A stretch of DNA of 64,000 nucleotides, taken from assembly GCA_026168455.1 (NCBI GenBank), contig CM047431.1, positions 23,315,365-23,379,364 of the forward strand, read 5' to 3'. How positions within the stretch are numbered: position 1 is the stretch's first letter; every line of letters starts with the position of its first letter. This DNA is from Theocolax elegans. Its lineage: Eukaryota > Arthropoda > Insecta > Hymenoptera > Cerocephalidae. Of the stretch, positions 8,137 to 59,849 are shown piece after piece. The position numbers and the translations under genes were made by a program. The notes under the pieces are model-generated. The model was not told the origin of the DNA, searched no databases, and was given only the letters and a program-made list of their open reading frames with translations.

Positions 8137-8379
8137 CTATTTTCCGCTCGCGTTAGGGACTATCATTGGGCAGTTGCACCATGGGCTTTTCGAAGGTTCG
8201 ATGATACCTTTCTTCAGCATTATATCGAGTTCTTCGTATCCAGCCTGCAACATCTTCGGCGAATAATAGTGGTTCCGCTGACGAATTGATTCGGCACCCT
8301 GCTCATCGATTTTGTGGAAATCTAGGTAAGTTACACCTATGCTTGATAATCCTCCTATGCTTGATGGGCAAGTAAGCAA
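8137..8379 (-). pseudogene. Ty3/Gypsy reverse transcriptase N-terminal segment
   Basis: 80 residues ending L-K-K-G-I-I-E-P-S-K-S-P-W, then P-M-I-V-P-N-A-S-G-K. This is the classical first block of Gypsy RT (GIIxPSxSPWxSPxxxVxKKxG). A stop follows at 8137, immediately before the deletion described for the next segment. Confidence 0.85.
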
Positions 8380-8930
8380 CTAGAGACTTTGCCATAGGGG
8401 TAAAAATGATGAATGATACCTTTATCAGTCCACCACTTATCATTTGCGTAGCAAATATTCACGTTCGCATTACGTTTAAAGTCGATGCCTAATATGCAAT
8501 CATAATGCAAGCCATCTGATACTTGAAAGGGCATTATAATAGTTTCACTATCTATTTCTACGGCTATATCTATTATTCTTTGTATTGCTACAGCTGTACC
8601 GTCCGCTACTTTAACTGCTGAATTGCTGGATTTTCGTAATTTATGCTGTAATACTCTACTGATTTCTCGACCAATAAATGAGTGTACTGACCCATCGCCA
8701 AGTAAAGCTGTAAGCTTTTGTCCGTTTAACTCTATGTTAAAGAAATGACGCGGATCGATGCCGAATACTTGCTGTATTAGGGAATTATTTGCTGCTAATT
8801 GGGAGAGTATTAACCCATCTGGGTGTTTGGGTGCGAAAATACGGGTCTCTATGTTCTCTGGCTGTTGTTTCCCTTGCTTATATTCTTGTTGCAGCTGCAA
8901 TTTGTATAATCGGTGCCTTGAACTCCACAA
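8355..8930 (-). pseudogene. Ty3/Gypsy retropepsin-type protease region
   Basis: 191-residue open frame. Near residue 75 it has a sequence in the position of the aspartic-protease active site, followed by S-F-I-G-R-E-I, and further on C-I-L-G-I-D-F, the usual closing block of the domain. The active site reads L-L-G-D-G-S where the family has L-L-D-S/T-G-x, so the catalytic Asp is displaced and the enzyme is probably dead. The frame overlaps the start of the RT segment in another frame. Confidence 0.75.
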
Positions 8931-17599: not shown

Positions 17600-18138
17600 T
17601 CCTTTAATTTATCACTCGTTATTTTTGCATTGTTTAGTAGTAATATTTTCAAATTTTTTCTACTTTTAGCTCTTGAAAGTGCTACGTATAATTGACCATG
17701 ACTAAAAACTGGAGTTGGTAAATAGATACCAACTTGTTTATATGACTGTTCTTAAGATTTATTAATAGTCATTGCGAAACCTAATCGTATGGGAAATTGT
17801 TTTCGACGCATGTTGAATGGTATTTCTTCCTTAGATGGTGACAAAGTGATGCTTGGTATTAAAACTAATTTTCCAATTTTCTTTCCGCTTATAATTTCTG
17901 CTTTAATTAAATGTTTCATAAGTTTTTTTACTAATAACCTTGTTCCATTATAAAGAATATCATTTACATTTAAATTTCTCAGAAGAATTACTATTGCACC
18001 TACTTTTAATTGTAATTTATGCAGAGGAAGTCCATTAGGCGAATTAAGAAATTCAGTAGGTAACATGATATCTAAATTTTCTCCGTTATCATCTTCTGCT
18101 GTATCTACAGTTAAATATTCAATAGTTTGCCCTACCAT
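17600..18138 (-). pseudogene. Helitron PIF1-type helicase, C-terminal part
   Basis: The open frame (128 residues) has Y-L-T-V-D near its start, then L-P-L-H-K-L-Q-L-K-V-G-A and L-L-R-N-L-N-V-N-D, and ends Q-F-P-I-R-L-G-F-A-M-T-I-N-K-S. A TAA then replaces the expected Gln codon. Past it the same frame continues with Y-L-P-T-P-V-F-S-H-G-Q-L-Y-V-A-L-S-R-A, the helicase motif VI. So a single stop splits the end of an otherwise recognisable RepHel helicase domain. Confidence 0.9.
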
Positions 18139-18245
18139 TATAATTAAAATTTTATTATTAATTTCAAGTACATCATTGTTTGTGGGGCCAGAATAACTTT
18201 ATCATTTAAATCTACATCATTAATGTTTATTTGATTTCCAAAAGT

Positions 18246-18527
18246 TTATGCAATGATATCGTCTTCTTTTGTTATTAAATCAACAGGGATTTCGAGCAGT
18301 TCATTTTCTTCTTCATATATATTTAAACGTTTACCTTTACCTACGTTCAATAATCTTTGTCTAAAATGATTGTCATTATCTGTCATTCGAAGATTTTCAT
18401 TTAGTGTCATGCGTATAAAACTTGGCCATAAGTAGCTATTTTTAACTGAATTTTCCATAACTTCAGTTCGACTACCATATCGGATAACTGGTAATGTTTG
18501 TCTAATATCGCCATAAACAACTAACAT
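18246..18527 (-). pseudogene. Helitron helicase, GDxRQTLPV region
   Basis: 93 residues with V-Y-G-D-I-R-Q-T-L-P-V near the start (family form GGDFRQTLPV) and a Leu-rich segment (M-T-L-N-E-N-L-R-M-T) typical of Helitron helicases (LxxNMR). The first Gly of the motif is replaced by Tyr. It is separated by frameshifts from the segments on each side. Confidence 0.9.
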
Positions 18528-18608
18528 TTGACCACCAAATATTTTTTTGATGTCATAGATATTTCATTCCATATTACAATATGAACCTTTTTTAAATTTT
18601 TACCATCT

Positions 18609-18815
18609 ATTGCGATATTAATTTAAATGTTGTGTGTACTGTTTTCCCGTTATGTAATTAATTTGCTGCAATCCCTGTCCAAGCAACACATAAAAATGAA
18701 ATTAATTAAAATTGCGATGGTAATTTAAATGTTCTGTGTATACTGTTTTCCCGTTATGTAATTAATTTGCTGCAATCCCTGTCCAAGCAACACATAAAAA
18801 TGAAATACTTGAAAA
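18609..18815 (-). repeat. Tandem duplication of about 104 bases inside the helicase
   Basis: Two adjacent copies share TGTTTTCCCGTTATGTAATT and GCAATCCCTGTCCAAGCAAC with only a few differences. The second falls where the helicase motif after Walker A should be read once, so the duplication itself breaks the frame. Confidence 0.85.
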
Positions 18816-18839
18816 TTTTAGGTAGTCTATAAGAACGTT

Positions 18840-19494
18840 AAGTAAATAATTTTTTCCACTTCCTCCTGGTCCATCAATAAAAATGTTTTTTTTTTTCTTC
18901 AATTTTTAAATGTTGCACGACAGTATTGAAAATTTCTTTTTGATGATTTTTTAAAGAATTTACTTTGACTTCTAATGCAGTAAATGTGCAACTTTTGTTA
19001 TATGATATTGAAGTATCATCACTCTCTTCTATGTATGTAGAAATATCGGGTAATTTAAAATTGTTTAAAGAATATTCATGTAATTGTAAATTTTTATCAA
19101 TAATGTTTAATGCAAGATTTTTACATACATTTTTATCGTATTTTGGGTGATAAAAAAAGTGTTTGTATTTTTCGTATAAATCTTTAGCATTAATGGGATT
19201 TTGAAAAATGCAAATATATGCAAACAATTCATAAAGAGCAGTAGGAAACTGTAATTGTGTTGCTTCTTCCAAACATCTATCCCACTCTTTATCTTCATTC
19301 ACCAAATGTCTTGTGACAGAAGCTTCATAAAATGTTGAATAAATTATACCATCTACAGTACGTAAATCCTGAAATGATGATGCTCCTTTTACATGTAAAA
19401 GTAATAATCTTATAAAATATCGTTCACGATCTTTTGGATTCACCAAAAGCATTCTGCTTAATATAGGTTTATTTGTTTTTTTCTTATATTCCAA
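18840..19494 (-). pseudogene. Helitron helicase N-terminal part with Walker A
   Basis: A 206-residue frame with Y-F-I-R-L-L-L-L-H-V-K-G-A and F-x-D-L-R-T-V-D-G, both typical of the linker and helicase start in Helitrons. It runs into an A-rich slip near 18885. Just past the slip the other frame reads D-G-P-G-G-S-G-K-N, a Walker A whose last residue is N instead of T. An A-run frameshift and this substitution both argue against activity. Confidence 0.9.
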
Positions 19495-19639
19495 GTTTTT
19501 GAATGTATATCAAACACATAATACAATGGTATTTCAGAATATAAATACTTTCGTGCTCCAAAATTGATTTCATTTAATTTAAAGTATTCTGTTAATGTAG
19601 TTTCTACATTTTTTTTAATATTTCTTATACTTTCCCTTC

Positions 19640-20158
19640 TTTAAAATATACTTCTTGTTCATCTTGATTGTGAATAGCTAATCTTATTATGGTATGTGAA
19701 AGTTTATGTAAAGGACATTCTAATAGTCTGTGCATAGCTTCTGGTGGACAAAAATATCTTGCATTAATGTACTGCTTAATTTCATTATATTCGTATTCAT
19801 TGCTTTCATGACTTCATTATTAGTTTAATTAGAATTGTCTTTTTGATACCTGCATCATCAATAAGTATTTTATACATTGTACTGTTGATCATACTTCGAT
19901 GTTAATGTGACAATTAAATTTTAATAGTACATAAGGGCTGTATGGAACAACAAAACGATTATCAGCTACTGTATTGTAATATTTACCTTTATAATTGATT
20001 TTTTCGCCATCATTTCTTCGCATATACGATGGATATCCTGATGAATTAAAAGTGGTTTTATTATTATATCTTTTTGGAAAATTCTTCGTACATTTTTTTG
20101 TTTCTTTATTCATGCAAGGTGAACTTGTGTTTTGTTCTCCACAAGGTCCATGAATCAT
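19640..20158 (-). pseudogene. Helitron Rep, C-terminal part and linker
   Basis: The open part (20158 to 19889) begins M-I-H-G-P-C-G, has C-T-K-N-F-P-K and V-V-P-Y-S-P-Y-V-L-L-K-F, and ends C-H-I-N-I-E-V. These are the conserved blocks after the HUH motif. A TGA replaces the next Cys. Beyond it I-K-Y-L is readable but the second catalytic Tyr segment is not, and then N-E-I-K-Q-Y-I-N-A-R-Y and E-A-M-H-R-L-L-E-C-P appear in shifted frames. Confidence 0.85.
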
Positions 20159-20161
20159 AAA

Positions 20162-20599
20162 CTATTTTACAATATTATACAACCGCGGACAGATATCTTC
20201 ATTTGGAATTTCTGCATTTATGACTTCATCAGCTTTTTCTGGAGTATTGATTTTATAATTTTTATGTAAGAATAATAGCATATGCATGTGAGGAAGACCA
20301 CGTTTTTGAAATTCGATAACATAAGTGTAAGCGATACAGTTTCCTAGAATACCTTGTTCAACTACCAATTTTTTAAATTCTTTTACTTTTTGATGAAATA
20401 TTTTAACTACTGAGTCTGGTCTATCAGTTGTATTTTCATATTTTTCTAAATTTTCAGTTATTTCTTTCCAGTTTGGATTACATGTCATTGTTATAAATAA
20501 GTCAGGTTTTCGGTTACGATTTACCAGACTCATTGAATCAATATAATTTTGTTTTAAAAATGTTGAATTTCCAACAAAATTTGATTGAAAAATAAACAT
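20162..20599 (-). pseudogene. Helitron Rep, HUH endonuclease region
   Basis: 145 residues with F-I-T-M-T-C-N-P-N-W and, near residue 110, K-R-G-L-P-H-M-H-M-L-L-F-L. The H-M-H is the HUH metal-binding motif of rolling-circle replication initiators. The domain nicks and joins the transposon ends in the family. The frame is open through the motif but cut off from its neighbours by stops. Confidence 0.92.
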
Positions 20600-20637
20600 T
20601 TTTCCAATCTTTACATTTTCAGATTTTTTTTATGTAA

Positions 20638-21105
20638 TTAATCCATTACACCTTTGTAATAATCTCTTCTTAAAATATCTTGATTTTTCTTTATAAAATA
20701 TAATCTTGATTGTTCAACTTTTACAAATGCATCAATTTCAAACTGTTGAAAAATTTTTCCCATATTAAGATATGGATTTAATCCATTTCTCACAGAAAGT
20801 CTATAATTATAAAATTGTAAACTTGAAATATTGTTATTCGTATATTTGCATTTCATTTTAGGCATCCATCCATATCCTTCATTTGGATAAATAAGTGGGT
20901 ATGTCATTGGATCAGAGTGTTTACTTATTAAAGAAATACTAATTGGATTGTCATATTTTGAATAAATAACTATATCTTGTTCTAAAGGAGGCAGTCCATC
21001 TTTTCCTACAAATACCATTGCAACTTCATTACAAGTAGTTTCATTGTATATGTTTTTATCTAATTTATCATTTCGCTTTATGCACATAGTAACTGTTTTC
21101 GGCAT
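20638..21105 (-). pseudogene. Helitron Rep, region before HUH
   Basis: 155 residues containing D-P-M-T-Y-P-L-I-Y-P-N-E-G-Y-G-W and the block Q-F-Y-N-Y-R-L, both standard in Helitron RepHel proteins ahead of the endonuclease core. It ends R-R-D-Y-Y-K-G-V-M-D. Confidence 0.9.
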
Positions 21106-21268
21106 AGAACCATTTTAGTGCATCGTTCTATTTCTTCTTTTTCTACTTCATACATCATTTTATAAGCTTCAGCATAAGTAATAACATGTCTAATTAAGCT
21201 ATCTAATTGACTTAACAAATCTAATTTTGTATCTAAATTATTTTTTGAACTTTTTCTTTCAGCTGTAG

Positions 21269-21832
21269 CTAATTCATTATCGAGGACATATAATTATCAA
21301 TTGTTCCGAGCCTCACTTTCATTTGGATGTAATGCAAAACATTGTGATATATTTGACCACAAATTCTTATAATTTGCGGTCCACTGATAGATAACTTGTC
21401 ATAATTAGCACCAAAACTTGCAAAAGCTAAAGCATTATTATATATTCGAATATTTTTTCGAAAATTAATACTATTTTCTGACGTACCTGTAGCTAATTGC
21501 TTTAATTTTTCTGGATAAGGAGGAAGTTTTGGCAAATCTACCTTTCCCTTGTGACAACAATCAGAAAATTCTTTACCTTTCGTATATTCAAAAGCAAAAT
21601 GTTTAGCATTGCAATATTTATAAGTTTCAGATATATAACCTATACTGTTTTCGACACTTATTTTCTCATCAAAATCTACATTGGCTATTCGACCTATTAT
21701 ATTGGATTTACTTACTAATTTTAGATTTTGTTCATTTTTAATTAAGATACGATTTTTTAATACTTTTAAATTTATATTTTTTTTTTGTAATAATTGGTTC
21801 ATCATATATGTTATAAAATTTTCCATCGTCAA
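21269..21832 (-). pseudogene. Helitron N-terminal (Helitron_like_N) region
   Basis: 187 residues. The first part is Lys/Asn-rich. The second carries C-C-H-K-G-K-V-D-L-P-K-L and I-R-I-Y-N-N-A-L-A-F-A-S, the usual N-terminal blocks (CCxxGKV ... NxAxxFxS). This is the 5' limit of recognisable Helitron coding sequence. The ends of the element were not identified. Confidence 0.85.
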
Positions 21833-23510: not shown

Positions 23511-23981
23511 GTTAATATAGGATTTACCGTTTAAAATGTTTCACAAAAATCTGTATATTTAAATAGACTATGCTGCACAATTCCAATTCAAATTCATTTT
23601 TAAGATTTTTAAAATAATTGCTTTAAAAACGTATACATTTAATTTTTTTAACAAAACGTTCAAACGGCTAAATTATACGTGTCAAAAAAATTAATAAATT
23701 TGTTTAAAATTTAATGTTAAAATATTGAGCACGAATTTAATTAATATTTTGTTTAATATAATGAAATATAAATATTTATTTCCATACTTACTGCTTTATT
23801 TCAAAATTGTTCAGAATACCATTTCAAACTCCACTAAGGGTCTATTAAGCTGGAATGGTCATTTGAGCAGAATCGCAAAAAAAACTGACAGGAATTTTTA
23901 ACTACTTTATTACTAATTTACTACCAATTCTAATAATTTTTAACCACTGCCGAATTCATTTTAACACCTAGTTAGACCAGC

Positions 23982-24625
23982 TTAATACTTAAGCTAGCCT
24001 CACTCTTTTATAACTCCGGTTGCAATAGGGCTAAAAAAACCTGCTGGAGCTTAAAATTTTTAACTCTTCGAGTACTTGAACAGAGGCTATCACCGATTTC
24101 ATTATTATCAAAAATTAACCCCTTTTTAACCAATGAAAAAATCAAAATAGCCGTAAAAAGCAAGATATAAAATTAATTCAACATTCTCTCATTGGTTACG
24201 ATAAAATAGCTAGAAATACAATTTAATACCATCACAGAATATTTTCAACCCTTAGTATCCCTTAATTAACCCTTGGTCTTTGCCAGGTTAATACTTAAGC
24301 TAGCCACACTCTTTTATAACTCCGATTGCAATAGGGCTAGAAAAACCCGCTGGAGCTTAAAATTTTTAACTCTTCGAGTACTTGAACATACGCTACCACC
24401 GATTTCAATATTATGAAAAATTAACCCCTTTTTATCCAATGAAAAAATCAAAATAGCCGTAATAATCGAGTTATGACATAAATTCGACATTTTCTCATTG
24501 GTTACGATAAAATAACTTAAAATATAATTTAATACCATAGCAGAATATTTTCAACCCTTAGTATCCCTTAATTACCCTTGGTCTTTGCCAGGTTAATACT
24601 TAAGTTAACGTCACTGTTTTATAAC
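23982..24625 (-). repeat. 306-bp units in inverted orientation (left arm)
   Basis: Starts of TTAATACTTAAG at 23982, 24288 and 24593 give periods of 306 and 305. The sequence is the reverse complement of the right-arm unit. Confidence 0.92.
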
Positions 24626-24660
24626 ATGTTTAATAACCCAATAACCCAATAACCCAATAA

Positions 24661-26092
24661 CCAATGAGAAAATGTCGAATTTATGTCATAACTTGCTTTT
24701 TACGGCTATTTTGATTTTTTCATTGGTTAAAAAGGGGTTAATTTTTCATAATAATGAAATCGGTGGTAGCGTATGTTCAAGTACTTGAAGAGTTAAAAAT
24801 TTTAAGCTCCAGCGGATTTTTCTAGCCCTATTGCAATCGAAGTTATAAAAGAGTGAGGCTAGCTTAAGTATTAACCTGGCAAAGACCAAGGGTTAATTAA
24901 GGGATACTAAGGGTTGAAAATATTATGTGATGGTATTAAATTGTATTTCTAGCTATTTTATCGTAACCAATGAGAAAATGTCGAATTTATGTCATAACTT
25001 GCTTTTTACGGCTATTTTGATTTTTTCATTGGTTAAAAAGGGGTTAATTTTTCATAATAATGAAATCGGTGGTAGCGTATGTTCAAGTACTTGAAGAGTT
25101 AAAAATTTTAAGCTCCAGCGGATTTTTCTAGCCCTATTGCAATCGAAGTTATAAAAGAGTGAGGCTAGCTTAAGTATTAACCTGGCAAAGACCAAGGGTT
25201 AATTAAGGGATACTAAGGGTTGAAAATATTCTGTGATGGTATTAAATTGTATTTCTAGCTATTTTATCGTAACCAATGAGAAAATGTCGAATTTATGTCA
25301 TAACTTGCTTTTTACGGCTATTTTGATTTTTTCATTGGTTAAAAAGGGGTTAATTTTTCATAATAATGAAATCGGTGGTAGCGTATGTTCAAGTACTTGA
25401 AGAGTTAAAAATTTTAAGCTCCAGCGGATTTTTCTAGCCCTATTGCAATCGAAGTTATAAAAGAGTGAGGCTAGCTTAAGTATTAACCTGGCAAAGACCA
25501 AGGGTTAATTAAGGGATACTAAGGGTTGAAAATATTCTGTGATGGTATTAAATTGTATTTCTAGCTATTTTATCGTAACCAATGAGAAAATGTCGAATTT
25601 ATGTCATAACTTGCTTTTTACGGCTATTTTGATTTTTTCATTGGTTAAAAAGGGGTTAATTTTTCATAATAATGAAATCGGTGGTAGCGTATGTTCAAGT
25701 ACTTGAAGAGTTAAAAATTTTAAGCTCCAGCGGATTTTTCTAGCCCTATTGCAATCGAAGTTATAAAAGAGTGAGGCTAGCTTAAGTATTAACCTGGCAA
25801 AGACCAAGGGTTAATTAAGGGATACTAAGGGTTGAAAATATTCTGTGATGGTATTAAATTGTATTTCTAGCTATTTTATCGTAACCAATGAGAGAATGTA
25901 GAATTAATTTTATCTCTTGCTTTTTACGGCTATTTCGATTTTTTTGTTGGTTAAAAAGGGGTTAATTTTTGATAATAATGAAATCGGTGATAGCCTCTCT
26001 TCAAGTACTCGAAGAGTTAAAAATTTTAAGCTCCAGCAGGTTTTTCTAGCCCTATTGTAACCGGAGTTATAAAAGAGTGAGGCTAGCTTAAG
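24661..26092 (+). repeat. 306-bp tandem repeat array (right arm)
   Basis: Units begin CCAATGAGAAAATGTCG and repeat with an exact 306-base period. The middle units are almost identical, showing recent homogenisation, while the outermost unit (25885 on) has diverged, for example AGAGAATGTAGAATTAATTT. Confidence 0.95.
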
Positions 26093-26476
26093 TATTAAGC
26101 TGGCCTAACTAGGTGTTAAAATGAATTCGGCAATGGTTAAAAATGATTAGAATTGGTAGTAAATTAGTAAAAAAGTAGTTAAAAATTCCTGTCAGTTTTT
26201 TTTGCGATTCTGCTCAAATGACCAGTCCAGCTTAATGCGGCCCTCCACTAAGCCTTGACTTTTATTACCAACTTTGACATCTTTTTCGCACAAAACGCTC
26301 GTCGTTGGGAGATTTTGCGAAATCCAGAGAACCAAATGGTAGATCTCCGTAGTTACTTTGGTAGTACTATAGGCGTCGAGTTACAAAATCAGTAAATTGT
26401 TAATGTTTATTAAAAAAATTAACTAATGTATCGGTAAAAATAAAATCATTATTCATTAGAAACAGCAAATTCACCA

Positions 26477-51427: not shown

Positions 51428-51838
51428 AAACCGATATTATATATTTTACACATATACATATCACCGAACGATAAATTCATTTTATTTCAAATAACTTGCG
51501 ACTCGGTCTAATACGTCCCACTCTGGCTGGTGGTTTTTCCCACCACCAGATGGAGACGACTACCTCTCTACACTCGTTGGAGAGATCGTCGTCTCTTTTC
51601 TATATATAGCCGCAGAATATCTTGCTGGCGTCGCGGTTCATCTTGCGACAGGCCTCTAAGGTAAGATCTCCAGTTTCTTACTGAGGAGTCCAAGCTGGAG
51701 GTCGAGGACGAAACGCCTTTAATTATTTTAAAAGGCCGTACTCTGGGAAATTCCACCAACTATAGTGGACAAAGAGTACGATAGGCCTGCTTTATTCTAA
51801 AGTAAAGCATTTAGTTCGGAGAGACCGATATTATATAC
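51428..51838 (+). mobile_element. About 405-bp repeat unit with hammerhead-like core (copy A)
   Basis: The unit runs between two ACCGATATTATATA phrases. Its reverse complement is found at 58509-58907. The start of a further unit (TTTACACATATACATATCAC) follows the same junction phrase, now split by the solo LTR at 51839-53323, so units were in tandem here. The 63-residue ORF at 51568-51759 starts with TTG and its differences from the other copy are mostly amino-acid changing. Confidence 0.75.
51681..51740 (+). ncRNA. Hammerhead-ribozyme-like motif (copy A), uncertain
   Basis: CTGAGGA (fits CUGANGA), then GTCC, a 14-base loop, GGAC, then GAAAC. This is followed by GCCTTT pairing with AAAGGC, with one extra C, up to GTA. 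The core boxes, helix II and most of helix III match a hammerhead. The helix I pairing next to the core is poor, so activity is doubtful. Confidence 0.4.
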
Positions 51839-53323
51839 TGTAACACTGCACCGGGGATCAGGGTGCAGGTCAAATAAAGATCAGTAATTAACTAAGAATG
51901 ACACACGTATTTATTAATTAATTATATTAAGTATTCGGGTGGGCGCCAGCCGCGTTACTACGCGGCGAATAACAATAATACGCGGGTGAAAGTAGCCGTA
52001 ATATGCTACTGCTGTCTAACCGCCGGCCGCTACGTAGCCGGGTTCCGGGTTAAGCGCTAGATGCTGTAGGGAAGGAAGGGGAAGGACGGGAAAGACGGGA
52101 TGCTCGCACGCACTATCTGCGGTACTCGGCGGTACCGTCAGCAGGGGAGTAATAGTTCACCAACCTTACGACGTCTCCGGAACACCAGGTTGGGAAGCTG
52201 TTGCTCTCTCTCTCTCTTTACACACACTCGCTATCTCCTCGACTTTCGAGGCACAGGACACGCTGTCTCGCGGTTATTTTAGGTTTCGTCCGTTCAAAAC
52301 GGCGGACCGTAGAGCTCTGGCTCTCGGCGTGCTCGAGAGCCCCGTGTTCGTACCGCGCGCCTGCGCAGTACGTACTCGTGCGCGGCACCTCGATCTCGCG
52401 TCTCGCGAGCGAGTCGAGTGCCGCTGTATTCAGGCTGTATCGGCATAACTCTGCTGTATGTTGCTGTATGCTGTGTGATGGTGACCTGGTGTTGCTGCCG
52501 TCTCGGAGACGAGGTACAACCTCTTCCCAGGTAACTAATAATTCATTCGTTATTAACTGCGTTCTTCAAATGGGTACGGCATGAGTTTCAGGTACGATGC
52601 TCACCCGCCGTCACTTGCTGCTCGAGGCCGAGTCACCCCTCTCTCCTCGGCGACGTTGACCTCTCTGATGGATAGCCACTCCGTCTACGGCTCTAGGTAG
52701 GTATTTGGTCGTGAGGTTTACGCACATGTCTGTATTTGTATGCGTTATTGTCCGGGAGATCGGCTGTACACGTTGTTTGTGTACAGTACCCTAACCTCAA
52801 TTTACCCTATGATGTTCCTTGTACATCTGTAGTGATTATATACAGCTGTACATATATTTCCTTGTCTTTTGTCTTCTTGGCTATGGCTATTTATCCTCTT
52901 CCTTGCTCCTTACCCTCTTACTGTGTTTTTGTTCTTATTAGTATCTCTTTTACAGCTGTAACTTGCTTGACGTTGAAGGTTCTTCAGCTTCCTGCCTGGA
53001 TACCACCTCATCGCCTTGACTGCTGTACTGTGAGGCTTCGGAGAGTCCTGGATGCTTCCTGGTGATCGCCTCCCTTTGAGTATCCTGTTTGCAGTGTCAG
53101 ACTCGGAGGAGCCCACCTGAGGTTCTGAGCTCGCCCTGGCCTTCAACGTCAAGGCCAAGTGTTTTATGTGTGCCGTGCTTGGGATGGGGTTTTAGTCTGT
53201 TAGGGTAGGTAGGGCTTATTTATTGTGCGGGTAGGTAGGTGTAGGGAATTATATATGGGTAGGTAGGTGTTCGTTGTGGGTTCGATAGCTTGTTACTTGA
53301 CATGTGCAAAGTACATTGTCACA
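51839..53323 (+). mobile_element. Solo LTR, 1.49 kb, ATAC target duplication
   Basis: TGTAACACTG ... ATTGTCACA with ATAC on both sides (51835-51838 and 53324-53327). Removing it restores the continuous repeat junction, which supports the ends. ORFs at 52201-52584 and 52736-53065 are open only by chance in GC-rich DNA. Confidence 0.85.
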
Positions 53324-53327
53324 ATAC

Positions 53328-53380
53328 TTTACACATATACATATCACCGAACGATAAATTAATTTTATTTCAAACATTAA
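53328..53380 (+). mobile_element. Start of a further 405-bp unit
   Basis: TTTACACATATACATATCAC and CGAACGATAAATTAATTTTA match the start of copy A at about 51440; lost after about 50 bases. Confidence 0.8.
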
Positions 53381-53985: not shown

Positions 53986-54057
53986 GCGGGTGTAGCGCAG
54001 TGGTAGCGTGAATGCCTTCGGATCGGAAGGGGCTCGGGTTCAAGACCTGACGCCCGT
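53986..54057 (+). tRNA. tRNA-Arg(TCG)-like sequence, partly decayed
   Basis: 72 bases. The acceptor stem GCGGGTG / CGCCCGT pairs over all seven positions with two G-U pairs. D stem GCGC/GCGT and T stem TCGGG/CCTGA (loop TTCAAGA) also form. The anticodon-loop sequence CTTCGGA would give TCG (Arg), but its stem does not pair and the arm is one base long. A T run follows. It is the best preserved tRNA-like sequence of the window, probably a pseudogene. Confidence 0.5.
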
Positions 54058-54683
54058 TCTTTTTTTTTAATTTGTAGCAAATGAGTCTCATAGTTACAAA
54101 TGTTATAAATAGTTCTTTAAAATTAATACAAAAATTTAATTATTTAAGAAGAAAGTTTTATTACTCTAAAATACAAAATATTAATGATAAAACTTTTGGC
54201 GATGATCCTTCGTTATTAAATAAATTAATTTTAGGAGGTGAAGTTCTATTTAGATCCGTTTAAAATAATCCAAAATTTTAATAAGTAGTTACCAAATACT
54301 ACAATTTAGGAAGTATATGCACTTTACTATTTTTGGTAAGTTAATTTTTCATTAACATTTATAATTATTACAATATAAATTTAAGCTTAATAAGTTTAAA
54401 ATTTACAGTTAACATTTAATATGTTTCTATTTTTTTTATTATTTTTATTCTGATTTCATTAAACTAAATTTTGGTAAAAACTTTTAATTATAAATTGTAA
54501 TCTATTTAAAAAAAAATTAAATTTTTGGTATAAAACCCAATGCACTACAACAGTACTTCCGAGGTGTTACGTGAATCTGATGAATTTCTAAGGTGTCCAT
54601 GGTAGTGAAAAAATAATAGAATTTAAAACATTATTTTAAATAAATTAATTACGAAAAACGTTGTACATACGGGATTGGCGCGC

Positions 54684-57893: not shown

Positions 57894-58508
57894 ATATATA
57901 TATTTTATATTATAAAAAAAATTTGTCAAGTTAATAATGAATTCAACATTGATATTTATTGAATGTTAAACATGAGTGTATTTCCCACATAGCACAGAAT
58001 GTTTTTAAAATGTTTTTAAAAGGTTTCTAAGGAATGTTTGAAAGAATATTTCTAAAGAATAATCTATGTCCACTTATTGTATGCTTAAAATGATTCTTGG
58101 ATAACATTATGTTCAAGGAATGGGTATCTTTTAAAAACTTTATTTATCCTTTTAAAAACGTTGCAGAAATATTTCATAGAAACATTTTTAAAAATTGTTT
58201 CAAAGACATTGTTTAAAAACTTTATAAAATGTTGCTATGTCCACTCATAGCACGCCTAAAAACATCCTTTAAAATGTATTTAAAAGGTTTTTTTGAAGCA
58301 TTATAAGCAATGTTTCAACGACGTTATTAATAATTGCCTTTTATAAATGTGTCTGAGATGTTTTTAAGAAACTTTGGGAAAAATATCTTCTAAATATTAC
58401 TAAGTAAACCTTTGGAAAATATTATACGTCCACTTATTGAAAGCCTAAAAACATTCCTCAAAATGTAGTTAAAAGGATTTTCATAATATTTCGAGAATTA
58501 TATATGTG

Positions 58509-58907
58509 TATATAATTCGGTCTTACCGAACGCAATACTTTACTTTAGAATAAAGCAGGCCTATATTGCACTCTTTGTCCACTATGGTTGGTGGAATTTC
58601 CCAGAGCACGGCCTTTTAAAAAAATTAAAGGCGTTTCGTCCTGGATCTCCAGCTTGGACTCCTCAGTAAGGAACTGGAGATCTTACCTTAGACGCCTGTC
58701 GCAAGATGAACCGCGACGCCAGCAAGATGTTCTGTGGCTATATATAGAAAAGAGACGACGATCTCTCCAACGAGTATAGAGAGATAGTCGTCTCCATCTG
58801 GTGGTGAGAAAAACCACCAGCCAGAGTGCGACGTATTATACCGAGTCGCAAGTTATTTGAAACAAAATGAATTTATCGTTCGTAAATATCTATATATAAT
58901 TCGGTCT
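58509..58907 (-). mobile_element. 405-bp repeat unit with hammerhead-like core (copy B)
   Basis: Reverse complement of copy A at 51428-51838 with about 5 percent differences in the central part. It is bounded on both sides by TATATAATTCGGTCT(T/C)ACCGA, again a repeated junction as expected for a unit cut from a tandem or circular form. Nested in the CCCACATAG element. Confidence 0.75.
58607..58666 (-). ncRNA. Hammerhead-ribozyme-like motif (copy B), uncertain
   Basis: Same boxes as copy A on the minus strand (CTGAGGA, GTCC, GGAC, GAAAC, GCCTTT ... AAAGGC). The base triplet at the expected cleavage position is GTG, which does not fit NUH, so this copy should not self-cleave. Confidence 0.35.
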
Positions 58908-59849
58908 CACCGATGATTTGAAAACTTTTTACCTAGAGTTATATACCTCCATTTTTAAGTTTTACAAAAACATCTTAAAAACATCTCATAATCGTTTTGT
59001 AAATAATTTATTGGAAACGTTTATTAATCATTTACGCAAATGTTCCTGCAAATGTTTTTAAAAGGTTATATAAATTTTTCTATGCGAGATTCTTTATATC
59101 GAAAATACATTTGTGGAAATGGTATTAAAACGTCATTGCAACATATTGAAAAATATTTTCGTAATCATTTTTAGAAGAATCAAAGATAGATTCTAGCCAA
59201 TGTTTATAGGATATTTTAAAAACTTTTTACCTAGAGTTATTTTTCTCCATTTTTAAGTTCTACAAAAACATCTTAAAAACATCTCATAGTCGTTTTGTAC
59301 ATAATTTATTGGAAACGTTTATTAATCATTTACGCAAATGTTCCTGCAAATGTTTTTAAAATGTTATATTCATATTTTTGGTAATTGTTTTTGGTCTGAA
59401 ATAATTCTGCGGAGAAACATTAATATGACCTTTCAAAAACATTTGAATAAACATTTCCATAAAAGTTTATTTAACTTTTCGAACAATTTATTTACAGGAA
59501 CATTTTTAAGTCCTTATAAAAGTCTTCTAACTTAATGTAAATTTTTCATAAAATGAAATGTTACCAAGTCATCTTAAAAACATTTATCAAAACTTTTAAT
59601 GTTTCACACTTAAAAGGTTTTTGAGAACTTTTTTTAAAATATTTTTAAAATGTTCTTTAAATCGTTTGAAAAAGATTAAATGATCAGATTAATTGACATT
59701 TTTTATAATATTATTAGGGTTACGAAATATATATTTGTTAATCGTTTCTAGGAAGTTTTTTTTAATATTAATATAATGTTTATAAGAGGTTTATGAAAAC
59801 ATTTCTGAAAAACATTTTTTAAAAACGTTTTGTATTATGTGGGTTTAGA

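Follow-up and report, generated by a model that had tools for sequence, protein, structure and literature searches.

A probable retrozyme-like unit with a predicted type III hammerhead in the wasp Theocolax elegans

The question raised by this locus is whether a short unit, present twice in a window of 64,000 nt of Theocolax elegans DNA (the whole stretch analysed; 128 kb when both strands are counted), is a mobile element built around a hammerhead ribozyme. A preliminary description had proposed a retrozyme on the basis of a unit of about 405 bases, seen in apparent partial tandem at 51428-53380 and again in reverse orientation further along. Here we favour, with a probability of about 0.68, a short, apparently non-coding and non-autonomous retrozyme-like element that carries a type III hammerhead and likely follows a retrozyme-like life cycle.

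Two copies of a unit of approximately 390 nt, designated A and B, lie in opposite orientation 6.8 kb apart. Copy A is interrupted by other DNA, and the parts are arranged as follows.

51430..51838, forward strand: copy A, a full unit followed by the opening 15 nt of another (BLAST to B, period, alignment)
51839..53323, no strand assigned: insert of 1,485 bp, TGTAAC...GTCACA (4-bp ATAC duplications, GC)
53328..53374, forward strand: continuation of the truncated second unit of copy A, 47 nt (BLAST)
58499..58913, reverse strand: copy B, one period of 384 nt and a terminal direct overlap of 31 nt (BLAST, period, overlap)

Measured between repeats of an ACCGA motif, the repeat period comes to 394 nt for copy A and 384 nt for copy B, rather than 405. 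The full unit of copy A spans 51430-51823 (394 nt), and the second starts at 51824. The reverse-oriented copy noted earlier is present, at about 58508-58912; its terminal direct overlap is identical at 27 of 31 nt, and the left border of copy B falls where a local repeat ends (59210-59377 versus 58912-59079). The two copies are 92.5% identical over 389 nt by BLAST (94% in the body), and their alignment shows 22 substitutions (14 transitions) and three gap columns. The GC content of the unit is 0.43.

The insert in copy A is flanked by ATAC on both sides (51835-51838 and 53324-53327) and has a GC content of 0.505, compared with 0.308 for the window. Self-BLAST revealed no internal LTR pair within it, and it is probably a solo LTR foreign to the element; the ATAC duplication is that of the insert, not of the unit of approximately 390 nt. 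Beyond the insert, BLAST aligns 53324-53374 to the unit (96% over 51 nt), and the two parts of the second unit, 62 nt in all, match the first unit at 60 of 62 positions. The stretch 51428-53380 is thus one unit, 15 nt of a second, an unrelated insert of 1,485 bp and a further 47 nt, and the insert rules it out as a true tandem. Arrays of the unit are absent from the window, where only the two dispersed copies occur.

Repeats and mobile-element remnants of other kinds are also found in the window. Two tandem arrays with a period of 306 bp (2.1 copies, and 4.7 copies with 97% matches) occupy 23977-26104, with a short AATAACCC repeat between them. Broken Helitron genes lie at 17752-21832, with Helitron_like_N and Pif1_2B domains (Pfam) in three ORFs. 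The ORF at 8355-8930 has weak aspartyl-protease matches below the Pfam cut-offs and is perhaps the remnant of an LTR retrotransposon, and the ORF at 36496-36969 matches transposase-like proteins, with ants or wasps in 8 of the 13 rows that name an organism (best 120 of 254 matches), a weak and indirect pointer to a hymenopteran host, as transposons jump between species.

The borders of the two copies bear on how the unit has spread. Homology between A and B ends at the unit borders, and their flanks, compared over about 180-200 nt per side, show no match, indicating that the unit itself is what moved. With the insert left out, copy A amounts to 1.16 units and copy B to 1.08 units; both start and end near one and the same point of the unit, at the ACCGA motif, a long way from where cleavage is predicted. 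Such over-unit length, with ends away from the cleavage site, is expected from a circular or multimeric template. No clear target-site duplication was found at either locus: at A there is an 8-nt ATTTCAAA match, but ATTTCAAA occurs within the unit too, and at B the best candidate is 6 nt with one mismatch.

Little in the unit suggests a gene. There is no ATG-initiated ORF of at least 30 amino acids wholly inside it, and the longest ORF of any kind (ATG, GTG or TTG starts allowed) is 63 amino acids with a TTG start. This ORF runs opposite to the ribozyme strand (51568-51759, reverse strand, in A; 58588-58779, forward strand, in B), is open in both copies, and is probably a by-product of the inverted repeats of the unit. 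A SINE with Pol III boxes was rejected, as neither an A box nor a B box was detected in either copy by simple pattern, and blastn of copy B against phages gave no match. Between the two copies, 0.6 kb beyond copy A, a tRNA-like sequence at 53986-54058 reaches the Rfam gathering level (34 bits) and is followed by a T run; it could be a tRNA gene, a tRNA pseudogene or the head of a SINE.

The ribozyme itself, its loops and a neighbouring hairpin are located as follows.

58629..58697, reverse strand: type III hammerhead of copy B (Rfam RF00008, descriptor scan)
58672..58685, reverse strand: loop 1 of copy B, 14 nt, containing GAUCUCCAG
58642..58655, reverse strand: loop 2 of copy B, also 14 nt, with CUGGAGAUC, able to pair with loop 1
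58611..58632, reverse strand: hairpin GCCUUU...AAAAGGC, overlapping the 3' side of the actual helix III and in competition with it (sequence)
51650..51718, forward strand: decayed type III hammerhead of copy A (descriptor with helix III relaxed to one pair)

In copy B, helix III has six pairs (58697-58692/58634-58629, AGGCGU/ACGCCU), helix I five (58690-58686/58671-58667, UAAGG/CCUUA) and helix II four (58659-58656/58641-58638, GUCC/GGAC). The core consists of CUGAGGA (58666-58660) and GAA (58637-58635); C17 is 58691, and cleavage is predicted at GUC|U, between 58691 and 58690. All core bases are in place, including the A15.1-U16.1 pair and a GUC at the NUH site. Helices I and II are closed by loops and helix III is open, which is the type III topology.

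The preliminary description had correctly recognized a CTGAGGA-GTCC-loop-GGAC-GAAAC core with a 4-bp helix II. Its call of a ribozyme core therefore stands, but the topology does not, as both Rfam and the descriptor give type III, not type I. The GCCTTT...AAAGGC pairing that had been taken for helix III exists, but as a separate, competing hairpin. The true cleavage site, the 5' strand of helix III and helix I all lie upstream of the core, and not at the GTA or GTG named before. Three objections that had been raised against a ribozyme (a weak helix I, an extra base in helix III, and GTG at the cleavage position) arose because this neighbouring hairpin was read as helix III; copy B has GUC and three helices. 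The type I fold implied by that reading, which lacks helix I and has GTG in copy B, was discarded, and a type I descriptor found no match on either strand of the window.

A type III descriptor (helices of at least 4/3/4 pairs), scanned over both strands, found exactly one site in 128 kb, and that site is in copy B. In first-order Markov sequence, helices of 5/4/6 pairs arose twice in 1.36e9 bases at window composition and three times in 1.24e9 at unit composition, giving a chance expectation of 2-3e-4 per 128 kb, i.e. 2-3 per 10,000 windows. Rfam Hammerhead_3 (RF00008) matches 58698-58628 on the reverse strand with 36.6 bits and an E-value of 2.7e-6 when a stretch of 531 nt is searched, below the gathering threshold of 48.5 bits. 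Searched as a whole at gathering level, the window gave a single Rfam match, a tRNA, with no hammerhead listed; at E-values up to 1 none of 28 matches was a hammerhead, and several matches to miRNA families had better E-values than the copy B hammerhead. The Rfam score is therefore by itself no proof of a hammerhead. On the opposite strand of the unit, neither descriptor (type III or type I) nor Rfam at E-values up to 10 detected a hammerhead. We are confident that the hammerhead of copy B is real as an architecture, while its self-cleavage is a prediction. At the other end of the window, several sub-threshold Rfam miRNA matches fall on CACGTG-rich palindromic repeats (1727-1854) and are probably due to chance.

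Viral contigs provide yardsticks for such scores, with no kinship to the unit implied. Six of them contain helix I plus the core of copy B. Hammerhead_3 was found in three of the six (L124, L125 and, at two sites, L126) and Hammerhead_II in two (L122 and L127), and L123 had neither. The four viral Hammerhead_3 sites score 36.5-46.4 bits, all below the cut-off of 48.5, and their activity too is a prediction. Three of them have the UAAGG/CCUUA helix I of copy B (L124, 941-997; L125, 2206-2261; L126, 1833-1887), probably reflecting convergence on a favoured helix. Neither the core pattern nor a second pattern from the unit has any match in the viral contigs. In the genome contigs the core pattern has one match, in L001, within what we take to be ClpX-like coding DNA.

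Copy A retains the core and the loop-loop match, the latter with a further G-U. Its cleavage site has become CUC (51656|51657), and a change of G to C at position 16.2 creates a C-C mismatch at 15.2/16.2 that breaks helix III, so that the descriptor detects the site only when helix III is relaxed to one pair. Rfam returned only a poor type I match (16.9 bits, E 0.4). Because of the CUC and the C-C mismatch, the ribozyme of copy A is probably dead. An intact ribozyme is thus predicted in one of the two copies, and each locus has a single hammerhead; with two ribozymes at neither, neither locus would be able to make a circle alone.

The most distinctive feature of the hammerhead is the complementarity of its two terminal loops, which was no part of the type III descriptor. 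The contact between GAUCUCCAG and CUGGAGAUC comprises nine Watson-Crick pairs, or 11 with a G-U, and in copy A one of the nine has turned into a G-U. The calculated energy of the loop duplex is -17.7 kcal/mol in B and -17.5 kcal/mol in A. When the loops were shuffled, nine or more pairs (G-U allowed) arose in 298 of 200,000 trials. By comparison, 16 distinct type III-like sites, drawn from at least 120 viral loci with the core-plus-helix-II pattern, have at most four contiguous loop-loop pairs; in none of the 16 are both loops at least 9 nt long, so that nine pairs would be impossible there, and loop 1 measures only 3-7 nt in 11 of them; as a control, this set carries little weight.

This complementarity could hold the ribozyme together or shut it off. 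For an 84-nt stretch of copy B, nested folding gives -27.9 kcal/mol with the loop match as a hairpin, versus -13.5 kcal/mol for the nested part of the hammerhead; the hairpin destroys helices I and II. The sum of the nested hammerhead part and the loop duplex suggests a near balance with the blocked hairpin, the pseudoknot lying outside what the model can score. In a growing transcript of B in which the hammerhead is complete, the L1/L2 hairpin has a predicted probability of 0.978-0.999 and helices I and II are near zero, again in a nested model that cannot score the pseudoknot. Helix III falls from 0.966 to 0.074 once the transcript passes the downstream hairpin, and stands at 0.916 in the full unit. 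In both copies the predicted minimum-energy fold includes the loop-match hairpin. Nested folding is therefore evidence against easy cleavage, and predicts a blocked ribozyme.

Folded as circles, the units are predicted to be highly self-paired, at -129.3 kcal/mol for A and -133.9 kcal/mol for B, compared with means of -88.5 and -88.7 kcal/mol for dinucleotide shuffles (z of -6.7 and -7.2; none of 100 shuffles as low for either copy). The complementary strands fold stably too (z of -6.6 and -6.9), which inverted repeats would lead one to expect. Of the pairs touched by substitutions between the copies, 7 of 11 remain paired under the predicted fold of B (P 0.006) and 7 of 14 under that of A (P 0.12), a pattern that weakly supports selection on the RNA of the unit.

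The architecture of the element suggests spread via circular RNA. On the reading that we favour, a transcript running through more than one unit would fold the hammerhead and be cut after GUC, and two such cuts would free monomers of approximately 390 nt with 5'-OH and 2',3'-cyclic phosphate ends. Each monomer would then be closed into a stable, highly self-paired circle by a host RNA ligase, and the reverse transcriptase of another element might copy this circle slightly more than once round before inserting the cDNA. The resulting copies would be 1.08-1.16 units long, with ends that are not at the cleavage site. The nine pairs formed by loops 1 and 2 would serve the active hammerhead as a tertiary clamp; refolded as a nested hairpin, the same complementarity would keep the circle from being cleaved. 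What the sequence shows is the architecture of the ribozyme, a structured unit and two dispersed copies of more than unit length; cleavage, circularisation, the helper enzyme, the circular template and the on/off switch are all steps that we infer. The retrozyme idea of the preliminary description is partly supported: size, structure, the lack of an ATG ORF of at least 30 amino acids and the over-unit copies agree with it, but neither locus has two ribozymes.

The same copies might instead stem from a satellite monomer that spreads as DNA, by extrachromosomal circles and recombination, the ribozyme merely trimming transcripts and the RNA not being the mobile form. DNA circles could leave the same over-unit trace in dispersed copies, a clear target-site duplication, a hallmark of retrotransposition, was not found at A or B, and a satellite with hammerhead structure and activity is described in cave crickets (pDo500; PMC2837043). 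Against a satellite, the window has no array, only two dispersed copies in opposite orientation with unlike flanks where compared, and structure is strong at the level of RNA, with kept pairs above expectation under the fold of B, though not that of A. We consider this origin unlikely. It is less probable still that the motif is a chance or dead hammerhead look-alike in a hairpin-rich short interspersed element, its nine-pair complementarity being a mere stem. The loop hairpin belongs to the minimum-energy fold of both copies and dominates the ensemble of B, copy A has no valid helix III, and copy B scores under the Rfam cut-off, all as such a motif would have it. However, helices, core and GUC are all right in one copy, where so few are expected by chance, the complementarity falls exactly in loops 1 and 2, the site of the tertiary contact in hammerheads, and the Pol III boxes sought are missing from both copies.

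Finally, the unit might be no independent element but a fragment of a larger hammerhead-bearing retroelement, such as the terminal repeat of a Penelope-like element or a Terminon. Both groups carry hammerheads, the Penelope-like ones in pseudo-LTRs (PMC7761336). These are described there as minimal type I ribozymes, whereas the ribozyme of copy B is type III and its helices are complete, and the two copies resemble each other no further than the borders of the unit; this origin seems very improbable.

Among known systems, compared here as the accessible portions of the cited papers describe them, the animal non-LTR retrozymes come close to the retrozyme-like unit (Cervera & de la Peña 2020, PMC7229834). 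They are 150-450 bp long with less than 50% GC, and insects are reported to be among the groups with such repeats. The unit resembles them in its length of approximately 390 nt, its GC content, the lack of LTRs, a self-paired circle and a hammerhead inside the unit. It differs in that theirs are type I, and in that theirs occur as dimers to multimers, whereas both copies in the window (2 of 2) have 1.08-1.16 units with one hammerhead each. With the plant LTR retrozymes (Cervera 2016, PMC4918200) the unit shares the type III ribozyme and a predicted circle that keeps the ribozyme in a blocked fold. Those elements have LTRs of 300-400 bp with hammerheads, a PBS, a PPT and a 4-bp TSD (PMC4918200), and their circles measure 600-1000 nt (PMC6155905); by contrast, copies A and B end in direct repeats of just 62 and 31 nt, neither of which contains the ribozyme. 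By kingdom, animal retrozymes are given as type I and plant retrozymes as type III (PMC7229834, PMC7761336). Because the unit shows the tested marks of each class only in part, we file it in neither, although it would work like a retrozyme. It is also unlike viroid-like agents with ribozymes in both polarities, having no hammerhead on the opposite strand.

The ribozyme has structural counterparts among the type III hammerheads of termite, dipteran and HDV-like sequences (PMC7936874), with which it shares the type, occurrence in insect genomes, a first helix I stem of five pairs and a loop contact of Watson-Crick and wobble pairs. In the termite and HDV-like type, by contrast, helix I is longer and comes with an internal loop and extra hairpin, helix II has 6 bp, and the loop contact is the 4-base GCCR/YGGC, reported for toad, termite and dipteran-like type III motifs. 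Copy B has a helix I of five pairs, a plain 14-nt loop and the GAUCUCCAG/CUGGAGAUC contact. The termite genomic hammerheads are described as isolated motifs, whereas this one lies inside a repeated unit. In its accessible text, the same paper (PMC7936874) reports none of the termite/HDV-like architecture from a search of hymenopterans, hemipterans and a cockroach. One survey puts the share of hammerheads that use base pairing between loops at about 40% (Perreault 2011, PMC3088659), and, as in those pseudoknotted ribozymes, a base-paired contact here would stabilise parallel stems I and II. The contacts described there have "four or more", five or six pairs, unlike the nine (11 with G-U) in this unit.

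In one sentence, and with no further description in its accessible text, a review from the group that coined the term retrozyme refers to insect "elements with type III HHRs" (PMC7761336). The element of this window may be an instance of these, and given that mention specialists may already know this kind of element; in the open-licence literature, as far as its accessible text goes, we found no paper that fully describes a type III retrozyme element from an insect. A bolder view is that insects have a separate retrozyme lineage on type III hammerheads, in which loops of 9-11 pairs serve as a two-state switch (kissing clamp or off hairpin), and from whose genomic copies termite and other HDV-like RNAs could have taken their type III hammerheads. 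This extension we regard as doubtful. If the reading that we favour is true, a type III hammerhead in a mobile unit of approximately 390 nt from an insect genome would turn the mention in the review into a concrete element, and the type III motifs of insects would gain a plausible home.
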